From: Candidatus Pacearchaeota archaeon
GTDB lineage: Archaea; Nanobdellota; Nanobdellia; Pacearchaeales; GW2011-AR1
DNA: 56,205 nt
Direction: 5' to 3'
Assembly: GCA_018303855.1 (NCBI GenBank)
Contig: JAGVXI010000009.1
Span: 1 to 56,205 of the forward strand
The translations under genes and the position numbers were made by a program. The notes below the pieces were generated by a model. That model had not been told where the DNA came from and searched no databases. It was given only the letters and a program-made list of their open reading frames with translations. Below, one piece after another: positions 46,893-55,038 of this stretch. Numbering within the stretch: position 1 is the stretch's first letter; each line of letters starts with the position of its first letter.

Positions 46893-47519
46893 TCATTTAA
46901 GCACAACAAACCTGTCTCTGCCGGAATTCTTTGCCTTGTAAAGAGCTTTGTCTGCTCTTTTCATCAGTGTTTTTTTTGTATCTGACTTTTTAAATTCAGT
47001 CAAACCACCGCTTATTGTAAGAGAATATTTTTTAAGTGTTTTATCTGATTTAATTATTTCTCTAAGCCTTGAAGTTAAAAATTTGGCTTTTTCGATGCTT
47101 GTCTCGGGAAAAATAATAAAAAATTCTTCTCCGCCAAATCTCGCAATTATATCTGATTTTCTCAAGCTTCTTTGCAGAATTTCAGCAAGCTTTTTTAAAA
47201 GTTTATCTGCCATTAAATGTCCATAAGCATCATTTATTTTTTTAAAAAAATCTATATCTATTACAAAAAGACAGAGTCTTTGCCTGCCCCTTTTTGCTTT
47301 CTCAAATTCAATGTCAAGCATTGTATCAAAAAATTTATTGTTGTAAAGCCCTGTTTTTTCATCATGAATCGCAGCTTCATAAAGCAAAGATATTGATTCA
47401 TGCATTGTTGAGAATAATTCAGTAATTTTCTCCCTAAACTTTGGGTCCAGCGCAGATACTTTTTTGTTCAGCTTTTCTGTAAGATAATCTTTCTTAGGCA
47501 TAATTATGGTAAGAAACAA
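46893..47519 (-). CDS. GGDEF-domain protein (predicted diguanylate cyclase)
   Basis: DEKTGLYNNKFFD, DIDFFKKINDAYGHLMADKLLKKLAEIL, ARFGGEEFFIIFP, ADKALYKAKNSGRDRF. Confidence 0.92.
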   Translation of the reverse strand: MFLTIIMPKKDYLTEKLNKKVSALDPKFREKITELFSTMHESISLLYEAAIHDEKTGLYNNKFFDTMLDIEFEKAKRGRQRLCLFVIDIDFFKKINDAYGHLMADKLLKKLAEILQRSLRKSDIIARFGGEEFFIIFPETSIEKAKFLTSRLREIIKSDKTLKKYSLTISGGLTEFKKSDTKKTLMKRADKALYKAKNSGRDRFVVLK

Positions 47520-47724: not shown

Positions 47725-47886
47725 CTAATCATGCTTTCCGACTTCACTTGTTCTTTCATATCTTATGTGAAGTTTGTCTAAAACAGAAATAGCCTGTTGC
47801 CTCATATCAGAATTTCCTAAGCCTTTCCAGTCTATTATTGCTAAATCTATTTCTTCTTCTGTTTTTCCAATTGCCTGCTTAATCAT
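47725..47886 (-). CDS. Small hypothetical protein at the 3' end of the DGR operon
   Basis: MIKQAIGKTEEEIDLAIIDWKGLGNSDMRQQAISVLDKLHIRYERTSEVGKHD; longer ORF in track runs through VR1 in an alternate frame. Confidence 0.35.
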   Translation of the reverse strand: MIKQAIGKTEEEIDLAIIDWKGLGNSDMRQQAISVLDKLHIRYERTSEVGKHD

Positions 47887-47959
47887 TTCGTCGCTTAATG
47901 GCAGAGCATAACCGGGAATTATGTGTGATATAGCAAAATTTAATTTTAATATAAAATGC

Positions 47960-48748
47960 TCAAATTTTGACGCGCGTGACACGTACCCCGAGAGACGAAT
48001 TCGCGCCAGCAGGATACCTGCCGCAGTACAGGTTAGCCCCGTCCGAAACCGCGTCGAACCTAACGACTTTACCATTAACAGGCGCGTAGTAATATAAACT
48101 TCCATTACTTACATTTTTAGAAGGCAAACCTTGATAATTTGCATTTGATAACCAATCTGATATATCTATTTGTTTATTATCCATAAGACATTCCTCTAAC
48201 TCTTCAGACCTCTGCGCAACTAATTGACCATTTACTAATCTATGATCATAATTTATTTGGGTTTTACCGCTAAAAACACCCAATGTTTTATTTCTTACAA
48301 CAAATTTAGCATCTAACCATTCAGCTCTCCGAGGACTTCTAATTGTATAAATTTCATCTAAGATTGAGTTTAATTTTTTCTGATCAACTTGCTGTCCATT
48401 TCCATCATAAGCACTGCCTGATCTTAATAGATTAAGAAAATCAGCAAATTGTCTGATAGTTAACATCTGTGCTCCTTCCTTAATCAAAGAAACATATGCA
48501 TCATTCCAGTTTTTTCCTTGATGTACCATTTCCATAGAAACTAAAGTATCTGGATAAGAATAATTGCCGTGAGTTCTACCTTGCAAGATAAGATATTCAT
48601 TAGCATTATTAACACTAGCAGGACTTGGAACAGATTGAACTCCTTGAGGTATATTCACCTTTCCGTCATCAGGAGCACCAGCTAAAACTTTCTCAATTGA
48701 ACCTTTAATAGGCTTTCCCATAAAATTATCTGGTATTTGTATTTTCAT
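47960..48748 (-). CDS. DGR variable protein 1 (VP1), C-terminal C-type-lectin-like VR
   Basis: C-terminus VVRFDAVSDGANLYCGRYPAGANSSLGVRVTRVKI encoded by VR1; N-terminus MKIQIPDNFMGKPIKGSIEKVLAGA. Confidence 0.9.
   Translation of the reverse strand: MKIQIPDNFMGKPIKGSIEKVLAGAPDDGKVNIPQGVQSVPSPASVNNANEYLILQGRTHGNYSYPDTLVSMEMVHQGKNWNDAYVSLIKEGAQMLTIRQFADFLNLLRSGSAYDGNGQQVDQKKLNSILDEIYTIRSPRRAEWLDAKFVVRNKTLGVFSGKTQINYDHRLVNGQLVAQRSEELEECLMDNKQIDISDWLSNANYQGLPSKNVSNGSLYYYAPVNGKVVRFDAVSDGANLYCGRYPAGANSSLGVRVTRVKI
47986..48067 (-). repeat. Variable repeat VR1
   Basis: Aligned to TR: 11 core mismatches, all at TR adenines. Confidence 0.95.
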
Positions 48749-48754
48749 ATTTTT
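48675..48754 (-). repeat. 80-bp repeat (VP1 5' end), copy A
   Basis: 79/80 identical to 51246-51325 by eye. Confidence 0.9.
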
Positions 48755-50511
48755 GTAAATTGCTCATATTGTTTTTTTGCAATATCTACCATTAAGTATG
48801 CTAAATCTTTTCCAGACCTTACATCAAAAACTGGAATTTTCCATGATTTTAAATCACGAGTAAACTGACTATCTCCACCAAGATGAATATGCCCATAATA
48901 ATTATTAACAGCTAATTTCCTAAATTCTTCTCTTTCAGAATCCCAGTTACCTATTTCCCCATCAGAAAGAGATAAAACAAAACTTTCTCTGCCTCTTAAT
49001 GCTTCTGTGAGTGTTTTAGCATCAATATAAGTATTTCCAAACTCAGGAGATAAAGCTAATTTACGAACATCATCAATTCCATTAAAATCTGATTCTTTGT
49101 ACCTTGTCCTATCTGAGAATAATGAAACTCCATGCCTAATATACGGTGCAATTCCTTGCTTCTGCAAGAAGTTTTCAATTCCATAAAAACCCAAGAGTGC
49201 ATAATGATATTTGCTGTTGCCTCCCCATGGAATAAAAGTTTTGCTTCCCTCATCACCATCAATTCCTTCAGCCATGCTTCCAGAACTATCTAAAACAACC
49301 ATTTTAAAATCAGGGAAACTCTTTCTTTGCATTTTGAATTTAGAATCTATAACTAAAGGCTGGTCAGGATAAGAGAAGGTTAATCCCTCACTAGTAATCT
49401 TCAATTTAGAAGCCTTTATCTTTGCAGGATCGTCTTTTTCTTCATCAAAAGAACGATAAGTAAGAGTTGCTATTGGTAAACTTTGAGTTTTTGTCATTGA
49501 ATCTACTCTAACTGGAATGTCTCTAGCTAATTTTTTATAAACAGAATCTAATTGTTCAAAACTTGCAATGTTTTTAGATTGCCTTTCATTGCCTGAATAT
49601 CTACCAAATGCTATTTCCTCTGTTCCCTCGGGAGTTCCCATTTTCTGCTCTATGCCATTTCCTGCTGGAGATAGAGATTGTCCTTTTTCTCCACCCTGAT
49701 TTCCAGTTCCATTATCAAAAGCTGAAAGTCTTTCTGTTGGTGCTTGTTCTAATAAAGGAGCAAGATACTTAGTAAACTTAGAAACCATAGCAGGCCAACT
49801 TGACTTATTAAATAGAGGAGCAGTTCCTTGCTTGGAAGTTGTTATATCTTTTGGTAAAGCTAATTCCCTAACAACTTGTTCAACTGCTTTGTCAACACTT
49901 TTGTCATGAGTGTAATGTCTCTTTAGTAATGCAGTATCCACATTGTCTCCAATTGTATGCATATTTAATTTAACAAAAGCTTCATAAAATGGAGTGTAAG
50001 CTTTTTGACCTTGTGTTTTTACAGCTAACCCCTCATTATCCCAGAATAATACTTGACCTGAAAAATCTCCCTTGAACTCTTTTGCACGAGCATTTACAAG
50101 AACATCTTCAAAGGCGTTTGCTACATATTGGGCATGCCCTTTTTTATCTTGAGGAAGTGCTTCTTTAACTGCTTCAAGAATTTTATCATGATAATAAATA
50201 TCGTAAGGGCATCCTCTTTCTGTGCCTAAAGGTAATTCCCAATGTCCACATTCATGATATAAAACATCAGTAAGCAAAGTTTCTAATCCATTTGTAATGC
50301 TTTTTTTTCTTGCAAAAGCTTTCTGTCTTTTATCACTTAGGGGGTCAAAACCTTTTCTAAGAGTAATTTCTATATTCCATCCTTCTGGAGCTATATATGC
50401 AGCAACATTTTGTTTTGCTTCATCATATTCTTGGATATTTAATGAACCTCCAACTAATCCAATCTTATTCTTCGCTTCATGCAATTTTTGTTTAAGTGTT
50501 TGAAGTGTCAT
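48745..50511 (-). CDS. HExxH metallopeptidase-like + VWA domain protein
   Basis: LYHECGHWELP (HExxH), MVVLDSSGSMAEG MIDAS (DxSGS); likely start MTLQTLKQKL rather than track start 50697; ATGA overlap with VP1. Confidence 0.88.
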   Translation of the reverse strand: MTLQTLKQKLHEAKNKIGLVGGSLNIQEYDEAKQNVAAYIAPEGWNIEITLRKGFDPLSDKRQKAFARKKSITNGLETLLTDVLYHECGHWELPLGTERGCPYDIYYHDKILEAVKEALPQDKKGHAQYVANAFEDVLVNARAKEFKGDFSGQVLFWDNEGLAVKTQGQKAYTPFYEAFVKLNMHTIGDNVDTALLKRHYTHDKSVDKAVEQVVRELALPKDITTSKQGTAPLFNKSSWPAMVSKFTKYLAPLLEQAPTERLSAFDNGTGNQGGEKGQSLSPAGNGIEQKMGTPEGTEEIAFGRYSGNERQSKNIASFEQLDSVYKKLARDIPVRVDSMTKTQSLPIATLTYRSFDEEKDDPAKIKASKLKITSEGLTFSYPDQPLVIDSKFKMQRKSFPDFKMVVLDSSGSMAEGIDGDEGSKTFIPWGGNSKYHYALLGFYGIENFLQKQGIAPYIRHGVSLFSDRTRYKESDFNGIDDVRKLALSPEFGNTYIDAKTLTEALRGRESFVLSLSDGEIGNWDSEREEFRKLAVNNYYGHIHLGGDSQFTRDLKSWKIPVFDVRSGKDLAYLMVDIAKKQYEQFTKI

Positions 50512-50521
50512 TTTATTATTC

Positions 50522-51319
50522 CTATTTGTTGGCATTAGATGTGCCTTCGGCACAAGGGAATACCCCGAGAGACGAATCCGAGTCAGCAGGATTCCCGTAG
50601 CAGTCCAGGTAAGCCCAGTCCGAACCCGCGAGGAACCTAGCGACTCTATCTTTAATAGGTTGCCAAAAGTAAATATTTTCTCCCTGAACATAACCATTAT
50701 GTTGAGATGGTTTTGTTGCTAATCCTTGATTATTGAAATCTAAAGTAGCCCATTCATTACTTCCAAAATAATCATCTAAAGATACATCTTTTCCAACAAG
50801 GCTTTTTTGTGTATTATTTAAAACTACCCTATGGTCTGTTTCCATATACATCTTATTTTGAGAATCTTTTTTGAAAAGTGCATCAAGCCAAGTCCAACAA
50901 ACTCCTTTTGACCTATTCTTTGTTGAAGAAAAATAATCCCACAATTCTTTAGCCTCATTCAAATTTATAGGATTATTATCTCCATCATAAAGAGTTCGTT
51001 TTCCTTCAGCTGCATCTTTAACATTAAGAAAATGTGCAGTCAAATGATCTATTCTTGGCATAAACAATCCATTATCGCCTAGTTCATAATGTGTATCCTG
51101 CCAATTTTTTCCTTTGAGAGAAACTTCTTTTGCAATAAATATATCATATTGTGGAACAGCTATATAATCCATAGATTTTACATTTGGTGCAATATTTAAG
51201 GGAACTCCAATAGGCTTTGCTGTAGTTTGTTGTTGTGGAGAGACTGCACCAGCTAAAACTTTCTCAATTGAGCCTTTAATAGGCTTTCCCATAAAATTAT
51301 CTGGTATTTGTATTTTCAT
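50522..51319 (-). CDS. DGR variable protein 2 (VP2)
   Basis: C-terminus VARFLAGSDWAYLDCYGNPADSDSSLGVFP from VR2; same N-terminal segment as VP1. Confidence 0.9.
   Translation of the reverse strand: MKIQIPDNFMGKPIKGSIEKVLAGAVSPQQQTTAKPIGVPLNIAPNVKSMDYIAVPQYDIFIAKEVSLKGKNWQDTHYELGDNGLFMPRIDHLTAHFLNVKDAAEGKRTLYDGDNNPINLNEAKELWDYFSSTKNRSKGVCWTWLDALFKKDSQNKMYMETDHRVVLNNTQKSLVGKDVSLDDYFGSNEWATLDFNNQGLATKPSQHNGYVQGENIYFWQPIKDRVARFLAGSDWAYLDCYGNPADSDSSLGVFPCAEGTSNANK
50540..50554 (-). other. Hairpin just downstream of VR2
   Basis: tgtgcc-gaa-ggcaca (minus strand), 6-bp stem and GAA loop. Confidence 0.65.
50563..50644 (-). repeat. Variable repeat VR2
   Basis: 12 core mismatches to TR, all at TR adenines. 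Confidence 0.95.
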
Positions 51320-51325
51320 ATTTTT
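51246..51325 (-). repeat. 80-bp repeat (VP2 5' end), copy B
   Basis: 79/80 identical to 48675-48754. Confidence 0.9.
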
Positions 51326-51328
51326 CTC

Positions 51329-52087
51329 CTAATTTTTCGCGCGTGCGACACGTACCCCGAGAGACGAAACCGCGTTAGCAGGACTACTGACGCAGTACAG
51401 GAGAGCCCTGCCCGAACCCACGTAGAACCCAGCGACTTTACCATTAACAGGCGCGTAGTAACATAAACTTCCATTATTAGTTTTTGGAGTTGGGAGACCA
51501 TGAACATTTGCTTTCTTTAACCAATCACTCAAACTTATTCCAGATTCTTTGTCTGTTTTAATATAATTATATAGAGGTTCTTTAACTTCTACAAGAGTTT
51601 TAGTAGACCCATCAAACTTATGATAAAGAATATTTCCATCTTCAAATTTAGCATCTAACCATTCACTTCTCCAAGGATCTCTTACTTCAGTTATTTCCTG
51701 CAAAACATTTTCTAATTTTCCCTTATTCAGTTGTTTTCCAGTTCCATCAAAAGCTTTCCCTGATTTTAAGAGACTAAGAAAATCAGCAAATTGTCTGATA
51801 GTTAACATATAAGCCCCTTCTTTTTTTAGAACTTCGTGAGTTTTATTCCAATCTTTATTAAAATGATTTTTTTCCATAGAAACTAGAGTATCTGGATAAG
51901 AATAATTGCCGTGTTGCATACTTGGAAGTAGAATATATTTATCAGCATCAGTTAAATTAGATGAAGATGGCGCAACAATTGGTGAAGCATTTTTAGATTT
52001 TTCACGTTTTGGAACTTCTTTTAATATTTTGTCCATTGCTCCTTTTATTGGTTTGCCTAAAAATCTGTCTGGAATTTCAATTTTCAT
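51329..52087 (-). CDS. DGR variable protein 3 (VP3)
   Basis: C-terminus VAGFYVGSGRALLYCVSSPANAVSSLGVRVARAKN from VR3; body homologous to VP1; start MKIEIPDRFLGKPIKGAMDKIL. Confidence 0.9.
   Translation of the reverse strand: MKIEIPDRFLGKPIKGAMDKILKEVPKREKSKNASPIVAPSSSNLTDADKYILLPSMQHGNYSYPDTLVSMEKNHFNKDWNKTHEVLKKEGAYMLTIRQFADFLSLLKSGKAFDGTGKQLNKGKLENVLQEITEVRDPWRSEWLDAKFEDGNILYHKFDGSTKTLVEVKEPLYNYIKTDKESGISLSDWLKKANVHGLPTPKTNNGSLCYYAPVNGKVAGFYVGSGRALLYCVSSPANAVSSLGVRVARAKN
51355..51436 (-). repeat. Variable repeat VR3
   Basis: 14 adenine-site mismatches plus 2 non-adenine mismatches to TR. Confidence 0.93.
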
Positions 52088-53273
52088 TTTTAGCACCTTC
52101 CTGTTGAGCAAGATATGTTAAAATATCCCTCATAAAGGTCCATCTTCCCGTAAATCTATCAAGAATTTTCTGGTTTACTTTTCTTGATTTCACCATTTCT
52201 AATCCTGCACGAATATTATCTTCTTGCTGTTGAACTTGTGCTTGTGTTGTTTGAATAACTGCATCTAAAGTCTTATATTTATCTCCACTATAATTTGCAT
52301 CAACAGAAGCATCATTCAATACTCCAGAATATGCAGCTACAAACTTATAAGCTTGCATCATTGACTCTAAAAGATTAATATCTACTGGTTTGCCTGCTTT
52401 TCCTTGAACAATACTATCAAGAGCTTGAGACAATCTTATTGTTGATTTAGCTGCCCTTGTTGATAAAGGCAACACTAAAGCTTCATCAGACCCTTTTGCA
52501 TGACTAGTTATTGCTGCAGGCCATTGATCTTTAAGTTTACGCTTGCTCATTCCATTATTGCAATAATCTAAACCATGAACAAGATAGTTAGCTAAAACAA
52601 GCTTTTCAAATGGGGTGCTTTGCTTTACTAATTCATTATGTTTATTTATTATTTCTTCAGACTGATCTAAACCATCTGATTGAAAGTTTACTCTTGGATT
52701 TGTATTTTCTGCTAAAATTTCAAGTGTATCAGATGGTTTAGGAGAAAAATAATCTGAGTCTATAATAACATGCATTCTATCTTTTAATGCTCTTCCTAAA
52801 TCATTAGAAGACTCTGTAAACTTCTGCCCAAGATTTCCAGCTGCCACTCCTATTGAATATCCTCTTCCGATAGGATAAGCTTTTCCATTAACTTCAACAA
52901 ACCCATCGAATAAGTTAAATAACTGACCTCTTACAGAAGGAACACAATTAGGTAATTCATCCACAACAACAAGATGATAATTAATTTTATCAGTAAGTTC
53001 TTTTATTTCAGCACTAGTTTTTGCTGTTTTTAATTTCTCAAGGTTAATTTGCTGAAATAGTTCTCTTGTATCCATATCATTTCTTCCAAGAATATAAACT
53101 GTTTTATCACCAAACTTATCCATCATGTCTCTTGCAAGTTGTGTCTTTCCAGAACCAGTGTCTCCTATCATAAATAGGTTTAATCTTCCAAGTAAGCAAG
53201 CATCAGCAATATCACTCATATAAACAGGATATCCTGCTAATTGCATTAATTCTGTTGAATTTTTATAAATCAT
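52077..53273 (-). CDS. MoxR-type AAA+ ATPase
   Basis: LFMIGDTGSGKTQLARDMMDKFG Walker A, HLVVVDELPNC Walker B, adjacent VWA partner gene. Confidence 0.88.
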   Translation of the reverse strand: MIYKNSTELMQLAGYPVYMSDIADACLLGRLNLFMIGDTGSGKTQLARDMMDKFGDKTVYILGRNDMDTRELFQQINLEKLKTAKTSAEIKELTDKINYHLVVVDELPNCVPSVRGQLFNLFDGFVEVNGKAYPIGRGYSIGVAAGNLGQKFTESSNDLGRALKDRMHVIIDSDYFSPKPSDTLEILAENTNPRVNFQSDGLDQSEEIINKHNELVKQSTPFEKLVLANYLVHGLDYCNNGMSKRKLKDQWPAAITSHAKGSDEALVLPLSTRAAKSTIRLSQALDSIVQGKAGKPVDINLLESMMQAYKFVAAYSGVLNDASVDANYSGDKYKTLDAVIQTTQAQVQQQEDNIRAGLEMVKSRKVNQKILDRFTGRWTFMRDILTYLAQQEGAKNEN

Positions 53274-53412
53274 TTTTTTGTTCCTCCTTCAAAAATTTTT
53301 CAAGACTGTACTCTAAAACATGGGACTTATTTCTAAACCTTCCATTTTTTAATAGTTGTTCAACTACTATCAATTTTTCTTCATCAATTGTTATACTTAT
53401 TTTTTGTTTCAT
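53263..53412 (-). CDS. Ribbon-helix-helix (CopG/MetJ-like) regulator, 49 aa
   Basis: Manual translation MKQKISITIDEEKLIVVEQLLKNGRFRNKSHVLEYSLEKFLKEEQKNDL*; overlaps MoxR start by 11 nt; absent from ORF track. Confidence 0.8.
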   Translation of the reverse strand: MKQKISITIDEEKLIVVEQLLKNGRFRNKSHVLEYSLEKFLKEEQKNDL

Positions 53413-53437
53413 CTTATCTTATGTTATTTAGTATCAC

Positions 53438-53460
53438 TTTATAGTTAATAATACTATAAA
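53438..53460. promoter_or_regulatory. Candidate RHH operator
   Basis: tttatagt-taataat-actataaa perfect 8-bp inverted repeat, 25 bp upstream of the RHH start. Confidence 0.55.
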
Positions 53461-53778
53461 ATCATACTTTATAAATCTTTCTATTATAATACTATTAAAG
53501 AAAGGTAACATAATTTCCATAATTCTATTAAGCAAAATATGTAATCTGTAAAGCCCTAGAGGGCCTAATAAATTGTTCCTTTATGGAATACATATATAAT
53601 AGGCACTCAACAGGCTACATGCACAATCATAGCGCTATTTTGGAGCCATAAAATACAGCGACAATAGTTAGTAGTAATGAAAAACCTTGGGTAAGTTTAG
53701 AGTGAAATCTAAAGTCGCAGTGATACTCTGAAAATTTTAAGGAATTTTTAGGGCCTCAAGAACTTAAATTCTTGAAGC

Positions 53779-53909
53779 TTAATGATTGTGCTAAAGCTGT
53801 CGCTAGGTTCAACGCGAATTCGGACAGGGCTAACCTGAACTGCAACAGGAATCCTGCTAACACGAATTCGTCTCTCGGAATAACCTGTTCTCTAGGGCAC
53901 AATCATTAA
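53779..53909 (+). ncRNA. Putative DGR template RNA core: TR enclosed by a 13-bp inverted repeat
   Basis: ttaatgattgtgc (53779-53791) and gcacaatcattaa (53897-53909) flank TR; RT ATG at 53911. Confidence 0.7.
53799..53880 (+). repeat. DGR template repeat (TR)
   Basis: Template for VR1-VR3; 8 AAY codons in VP frame. Confidence 0.95.
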
Positions 53910-53910
53910 T

Positions 53911-55038
53911 ATGAAAACATACAAAAATTTATACAAGAAGCTTTGCTCAACAGAGAGTTTAGTATCGGCTTACACCAAAGCAAAAAGAGGAAAGGCAAAA
54001 AAACAAGCATTTATTGAATTTGATAAAAATGCAGAACAGAATTTAAAACAGCTACAAGAAGAGCTAATAAATATGACTTATAATACTCGTTCTCTAAAAA
54101 GATTTATAGTAAGAGACCCAAAAACAAGAACAATTCATGCATCTGCTTTTAGAGATAGAATTGTTCATCACATGCTTGTAAACATTTTAGAACCGATTTT
54201 TGAAAGAATATTTATTTATGATTCTTATGCCAGTAGAAGAGATAAAGGAACACATTTAGCAATTGAAAGATTTGATGCCTTTAAAAGAAAAATTTCCAGA
54301 AATGGAAGGTTGGTTCGACAAAAATCTGGGGGAAGCAAAAATCAAGTGCAGGGGTATGTATTAAAATCAGATATTTCTCGCTATTTTGACAATGTGGATC
54401 ATAAAACCTTATTGAATATCATTAAAAGAAAAGTAAAAGACGGTAAAATAATCTGGCTTGTACAAAAAGTATTAAATAATTTTGATATCCCAGTAAAAGG
54501 TAAAGGAATGCCACTTGGGAATTATACTTCTCAATTTTTTGCTAATGTTTATCTTAACGATTTAGATTATTTTGTCAAACATGAATTAAAAGCAAAGTAC
54601 TATATTAGATATGTTGATGATATGGTAATTTTGCACAGAAGTAAAAAGCGTTTGGAATATTTTAAGAAAAAAATTATAAACTTTTTAGAAGGAATGAAAC
54701 TAGAGTTACATCCAAACAAATCAGAGATTATTTCTCTGCAAAAAGGGATTACTTTTTTAGGTTACAGGATTTTCTATAAACATAAAATTCTAAGAAAAAG
54801 AAATAGAAAATACTTCCTAAAAAAATTCGATAAATACCTAAATTTGTATAATGAAGAAGTTATAAGTGATGAGCAACTTATAGCAAAGCTACAGGGATGG
54901 TTTGGTTATGCTCAATGGGCTAATACCTATCTTCTTCGTAAAAGGTTAATTGAAAAAACAGCAGAACTTTTCAAAAGAAAAAATCCTAACAAGATTCAAG
55001 ATTTATATAAACTATTAAAGGAAACTTATATAATATAA
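53911..55038 (+). CDS. DGR-type reverse transcriptase
   Basis: RDPKTRTIHASAFRDRIVHHML, KSDISRYFDNVDH, GMPLGNYTSQFFANVYLNDLD, YYIRYVDDMVIL (YVDD), KSEIISLQKGITFLGY; adjacent TR. Confidence 0.96.
   Translation: MKTYKNLYKKLCSTESLVSAYTKAKRGKAKKQAFIEFDKNAEQNLKQLQEELINMTYNTRSLKRFIVRDPKTRTIHASAFRDRIVHHMLVNILEPIFERIFIYDSYASRRDKGTHLAIERFDAFKRKISRNGRLVRQKSGGSKNQVQGYVLKSDISRYFDNVDHKTLLNIIKRKVKDGKIIWLVQKVLNNFDIPVKGKGMPLGNYTSQFFANVYLNDLDYFVKHELKAKYYIRYVDDMVILHRSKKRLEYFKKKIINFLEGMKLELHPNKSEIISLQKGITFLGYRIFYKHKILRKRNRKYFLKKFDKYLNLYNEEVISDEQLIAKLQGWFGYAQWANTYLLRKRLIEKTAELFKRKNPNKIQDLYKLLKETYII

Follow-up and report, generated by a model that had tools for sequence, protein, structure and literature searches.

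Near the end of a 56,205 nt stretch of DNA from a Candidatus Pacearchaeota archaeon (contig JAGVXI010000009.1; the window hereafter) a reverse transcriptase (RT) gene lies next to a set of genes with related 3′ ends. On the plus strand an RNA element, a template repeat (TR) and the RT gene follow each other; on the minus strand six genes were identified, three of which code for variable proteins (VP1–VP3) and carry a variable repeat (VR) at the 3′ end (Table 1). This region, positions 47960–55038, is a complete diversity-generating retroelement (DGR) of a DPANN archaeon. A preliminary description made from the sequence had claimed as much: the DGR-type RT, the adenine-specific pattern between the repeats and the C-terminal position of the VRs were all confirmed, and the TR coordinates, the TR peptide, the number of AAY codons, the RT motifs and the strands proved correct on recheck. 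To the parts listed there we added the VR coordinates, the RNA element and a small open reading frame (ORF) resembling ribbon–helix–helix (RHH) proteins.

Table 1. Features of the DGR locus, given as positions of the window (aa, amino acids; nt, nucleotides)
Feature	Position	Strand	Remarks
VP1, variable protein	47960..48748	-	262 aa
VR1, 3′ end of VP1	47988..48067	-	85% to TR; 12 mismatches, 11 at A
N-terminal tag of VP1	48674..48748	-	MKIQIPDNFMGKPIKGSIEKVLAGA; DNA 97% identical to VP2, 68% to VP3
HExxH/vWA-motif protein	48745..50511	-	588 aa; stop overlaps VP1 start (ATGA)
VP2, variable protein	50522..51319	-	265 aa
VR2, 3′ end of VP2	50565..50644	-	85% to TR; 12 mismatches, 12 at A
VP3, variable protein	51329..52087	-	252 aa from ATG; ORF begins with TTG at 52111
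VR3, 3′ end of VP3	51357..51436	-	80% to TR; 16 mismatches, 14 at A
MoxR-type AAA ATPase	52077..53273	-	398 aa; overlaps VP3 start; AAA_5 8.9e-13; bpMoxR 4e-5, below cut-off
RHH-like ORF	53263..53412	-	49 aa; judged by eye and conservation
RT-16 RNA (Rfam RF03019)	53578..53799	+	77.3 bits, curated cut-off 50; ends on first TR base
TR, template repeat	53799..53878	+	80 nt, 21 adenines, 8 AAY codons
TR 3′ end (initiation of mutagenic homing, IMH*/IMH-like difference)	53872..53882	+	CTCTCGG-AATA in TR, CTCTCGG-GGTA in VR1–VR3
DGR RT	53911..55038	+	375 aa; YVDD; motif 4 LGNYTSQ; no simple-sequence repeat

The three related VRs noticed earlier at the 3′ ends of minus-strand genes were located by a repeat search, in which the 80 nt TR segment of the plus strand matched three minus-strand segments at 85, 85, and 80%. 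By a base-by-base comparison with VR1–VR3, 37 of the 40 mismatches were found to lie at TR adenines (hypergeometric P = 5e-23), and 20 of the 21 adenines are altered in at least one VR. The adenine changes form a different set in each VR, while the non-adenine bases of the TR are kept to 97–100% (98% in VR1, 100% in VR2). Translated in the frame of the variable proteins, the TR reads VARFNANSDRANLNCNRNPANTNSSL. None of the 161 codons that can arise in this frame by substitution of adenines is a stop codon, in line with the earlier statement that mutagenesis of AAY codons cannot give a stop. The GGTA of the VRs and the AATA of the TR differ consistently in six VRs of two loci, namely the window and the related locus L078 (JAUXTS010000044.1), which is syntenic with the window gene for gene and has three VRs with all 32 mismatches at A. 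The DGR of the window appears to have been active recently. That one TR and RT serve three targets on the opposite strand was confirmed and found again at L078; to call this arrangement unusual, as had been done, is not justified, since multiple targets per DGR have been described in bacteria (PMC10907252) and suspected for nanoarchaea (PMC4372165).

The RT of the window matches Pfam RVT_1 (1.6e-23) and phrog_1423 (6e-118). Its best sequence match in the PDB is 8ub7 (1.7e-49), labelled only as reverse transcriptase in the PDB table and which we take to be a phage DGR RT; retron-type and group II intron RTs follow at 1.6e-19 or weaker. Over about 340 aa it is 41% identical to the RT of the archaeal virus ANMV-1 and 34% to brt of Bordetella phage BPP-1. 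In a tree of the gathered RTs it forms a sister pair with the RT of L078 (support 0.99) within a clade of 65 sequences holding DPANN RTs, and its named neighbours are records of Woesearchaeota, Pacearchaeota, and Nanoarchaeota. On viral contigs only relatives of 22–48% identity, mostly near 30%, were found. No ORF longer than 58 aa that could be an avd-like accessory gene is present between the minus-strand genes and the RT gene; the rest of the genome was not searched for one.

We considered three alternatives to an active DGR with three targets. A group II intron or retron type RT, with repeats similar by coincidence, had been named in the preliminary description as the finding that would speak against a DGR. 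A group II RT profile (TIGR04416) does match with 157 bits, but its cut-off is 300, and the matches to DGR RTs are both better and longer than those to group II and retron enzymes; the adenine bias argues against coincidental repeats, and TR/VR pairs adjoin most relatives of the window RT. This alternative is refuted by the results to the point of being practically excluded. A duplication of the target gene could also have made the three VRs alike, with just one of them still being a target, and VP1 and VP3 are indeed 51% identical along their length. VP2, however, shares only 32% identity with VP1, although nearly all non-adenine bases of the TR are kept in both VR1 and VR2 and their adenine changes differ; this fits sequence copied from the TR, rather than a common origin of the targets. 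As L078 also retains three VRs changed at A throughout, we regard duplication as improbable. Slightly less probable still is that the DGR is a silent remnant: 3 of the 40 VR mismatches are off adenine, but the RT is intact with its conserved motifs and VR2 has lost none of the non-adenine bases of the TR.

Upstream of the TR the RT-16 RNA was recognised with a score above the curated cut-off. Thirteen related DGR loci were scanned for this RNA, and it was found directly against the TR at 11 TRs in 10 loci; with the window included, it abuts 12 TRs in 11 loci. The Rfam entry describes RF03019 as sRNA only. Because of its position against the TR, we propose that RT-16 is probably the 5′ part of the template RNA of archaeal DGRs. 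The predicted fold of 53578–53910 is only modestly stable (z −1.8), and the TR is predicted to be enclosed by complementary flanks.

The six minus-strand genes are arranged in the order RHH-like ORF, MoxR-type AAA ATPase, VP3, VP2, 588 aa protein, and VP1, and at every junction the genes overlap or are separated by about 10 nt. From this layout we infer a single operon with a joint transcript. The genes interleaved with the targets had been called effector-like; they are not generic effectors but code for the ATPase and for a protein with HExxH and vWA motifs, in one operon with the targets. The 588 aa protein contains an HExxH motif (HECGH, residues 86–90), the sequence NAFED and, at the C-terminus, the residues of a vWA metal ion-dependent adhesion site (MIDAS; DSSGS, T494, SDG). 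In seven homologues H86, E87, H90, E135, D136, D408, S410, S412, T494, and D517 are invariant, a pattern that corresponds to a zincin-like HExxH motif with a vWA MIDAS after it. A search of viral contigs gave no relatives of this protein. The RHH-like ORF has no Pfam match; small ORFs resembling it are present at other loci of the same kind, and it is probably the regulator of the operon.

VP1 and VP2, dissimilar as they are overall, are 97% identical over their first 75 nt. For most pairs of variable proteins within a locus the first 72–87 nt are 86–97% identical, VP3 of the window with 67–68% being less similar. At L078 the identity of this N-terminal tag is 88–89%, and at a further locus (L060) 86–91%, there with an unrelated tag. 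Four MoxR/vWA loci without a nearby RT (L061, L062, L063, and L066) code for several proteins with a common, locus-specific N-terminus; some of these have VR-like C-termini, and some a GXGXG motif.

The combination of genes recurs in related archaea. Besides L078, L060 has a MoxR gene, three variable proteins, a homologue of the vWA-motif protein, and a DGR with 3 A-directed repeats. L058 and L059, both cut by contig ends, hold the vWA homologue and a DGR with 3 and 2 A-directed repeats, respectively. In L069 and L052 sequence-divergent sets of an AAA protein, an HExxH/DxSxS protein, and variable proteins accompany the DGR; the analogous vWA-motif protein of L069 matches VWA_2 weakly, with a score of only 0.036. 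Including the window, seven loci combine a DGR with such partners.

Bacterial ternary conflict systems pair MoxR/vWA proteins with DGR targets (PMC7159879, PMC10907252), which makes an intracellular sensor the most plausible interpretation of the locus. A survey of 2024 found DGRs of clade 5F, to which the window RT may or may not belong, in CPR (candidate phyla radiation) bacteria and DPANN archaea without association to conflict systems (PMC10907252). We consider it rather probable that the DGR and the AAA/vWA operon form a self-diversifying intracellular recognition system. The TR would be transcribed together with the upstream RT-16 RNA, the RT would copy the TR RNA with errors at adenines, and the mutated cDNA would replace the 3′ ends of the three separate target genes. 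The variable proteins, each with a constant N-terminal tag and a hypervariable C-terminal tip, would be variable subunits from one operon. Mainly because the variable proteins of each locus share their tag, we propose that it docks several of them, with differing tips, on a shared AAA/vWA machine. Upon binding of an intracellular ligand matching one of the tips, the AAA ATPase could remodel the complex and the HExxH module could be triggered, giving a proteolytic output that might serve in defence.

Several observations weigh against this proposal. The 588 aa protein and the variable proteins match no Pfam family, nor did profile searches of the PDB give a usable match for either; a C-type lectin (CLec) fold was not recognised in the variable proteins by such searches. 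The predicted structures are poor, with a predicted local distance difference test score (pLDDT) of 45 for VP1 (6 sequences) and of 38 for the 588 aa protein (2 sequences), so that the protease and any lectin-like fold are deduced from motifs only. Among the operon proteins, Pfam searches brought up neither a VMAP protein nor a known effector, and therefore we do not file the locus as a VMAP system. Most other DGR loci of these archaea that we examined have no partners of the MoxR/vWA type. Furthermore, MoxR/vWA pairs often assemble complexes and also serve as assembly chaperones, for instance in an archaeal phage-tail system (PMC7159879). The variable proteins could accordingly be surface or exported adhesins by which a small episymbiont binds changing hosts, with the MoxR/vWA pair acting as a chaperone or assisting export; the DGRs of CPR and DPANN organisms have been suggested to function in host interaction (PMC10907252). 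By eye, however, VP1–VP3 show no signal peptide, hydrophobic signal or membrane helix, and next to the AAA and HExxH/vWA-motif proteins the operon has no recognised export gene. We therefore regard adhesins as possible but unlikely, and prefer the intracellular recognition system.

As to the surroundings of the operon, the gene content of the remaining window (RNA polymerase, EF-2, and SMC are among the ORFs) marks it as chromosomal. A gene with a GGDEF domain (46893–47519, minus strand; Pfam 1.4e-43) is situated downstream of VP1 and was not seen at the syntenic L078. The ORF 47725–48105 (minus strand) contains the last 70 residues of a D-aminoacyl-tRNA deacylase and overlaps VR1 in another frame; perhaps this gene was cut by insertion of the cassette.

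The genome contains a second DGR on contig C6, where a TR and a VR (16 of 17 mismatches at A) lie beside an RT gene (G000:C6:29787-30831, L004 7782-8841) that is broken at a (G)9 tract (C6 30286-30294). A further TR on this contig (L004 4505-4584) has a separate RT-16 match but no adjoining RT, and all 16 mismatches of its VR lie at A. The repeats of contig C6 might be served in trans by the RT of the window. A split RT encoded by two genes was rejected for the second DGR, as repeat tracts are found at the break in other genomes. RT genes of related genomes carry (G)6–12 or (GA)n at one site, just before motif 4 (GMPLGN). When 371 genomes from the phylum were scanned, a tract of at least (G)7 upstream of motif 4 was found in 20 genomes of 16 genera, with no hit for the reversed control pattern, and one of at least (GA)4 in 3 genomes; this sample was selected by pattern, and assembled tract lengths may contain errors. 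In a sample of relatives a tract is present in 13 of the 35 RT loci in which motif 4 was located, and G-type and GA-type tracts alternate across the RT tree. On viral contigs, tract plus motif 4 was matched only once (L276), apparently by chance in sequence that is not an RT. In L052 an otherwise intact DGR RT gene has a (G)10 tract at its very end (G007:C9:22972-22981, L052 11473-11482), a site different from that of the motif 4 tracts.

Thirty-three distinct tract loci, including the second DGR of this genome and, e.g., L041, L042, L043, L044, L091, L164, and L182–L202, were compared for the reading frame across the tract: 11 are in frame, 10 shifted by one, and 12 shifted by two nucleotides. 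In 18 of 19 out-of-frame alleles examined the downstream half is open and contains YVDD. Substitutions at the three codon positions amount to 0.31/0.20/0.52 in out-of-frame and 0.33/0.21/0.52 in in-frame alleles; because the third-position excess is alike in both, the out-of-frame alleles are not decaying, and both halves are still under purifying selection. The tracts thus probably reflect phase variation of the mutator RT. Programmed frameshifting by a fixed shift is made less likely by the even distribution over the three frames and by the existence of GA tracts; transcriptional slippage on poly-G may be an alternative to phase variation. For DPANN DGRs in general, we lean by a little towards the view that they diversify interchangeable tagged subunits of an AAA and HExxH/vWA machine and that in many of them slippage of the tract before motif 4 switches the RT on and off in subpopulations. 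The present genome would then have one RT that is always on, that of the window, and one switchable RT, that of the second DGR, whose assembled sequence is in the off frame. A literature search on DGRs together with phase variation or homopolymers gave no report of such tracts; if they are true switches, targeted hypermutation would here be subject to a kind of control not met in the literature searched.

Compared with canonical DGRs (Bordetella phage BPP-1, archaeal virus ANMV-1, and the nanoarchaeal DGRs of DUSEL4, PMC4372165), the window has the same type of RT, a TR before the RT gene, C-terminal VRs with adenine-directed changes, and AAY codons. It differs in having three targets on the opposite strand, within an AAA/vWA operon, in lacking an avd-like ORF at the locus, and in the RT-16 RNA upstream of the TR; furthermore, only 32 nt separate the TR from the RT start. 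With the VMAP ternary conflict systems that contain a DGR (Kaur 2020, PMC7159879; Dore 2024, PMC10907252) it shares a MoxR-type ATPase, a vWA-motif protein, and DGR-diversified targets at one locus. Unlike in those systems, the RT belongs to an archaeal DPANN clade, the VRs are situated in small, separate tagged proteins instead of vWA fusions, an HExxH motif takes the place of trypsin or caspase domains, and a VMAP protein is not recognised. The tracts resemble the simple sequence repeat (SSR) contingency loci of Neisseria, Campylobacter, and Helicobacter (e.g., PMC11868660) in being coding poly-G or dinucleotide tracts with the three frames about equally represented; here, however, they sit in archaeal DGR RTs, and the RT of the window has none. 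DGRs as such were already known, whereas a conflict-type partner set at a DPANN DGR contrasts with the survey of 2024. The window and its relatives supply a concrete set of partners and a shared putative docking tag, as well as an RNA element that is linked to the TR.

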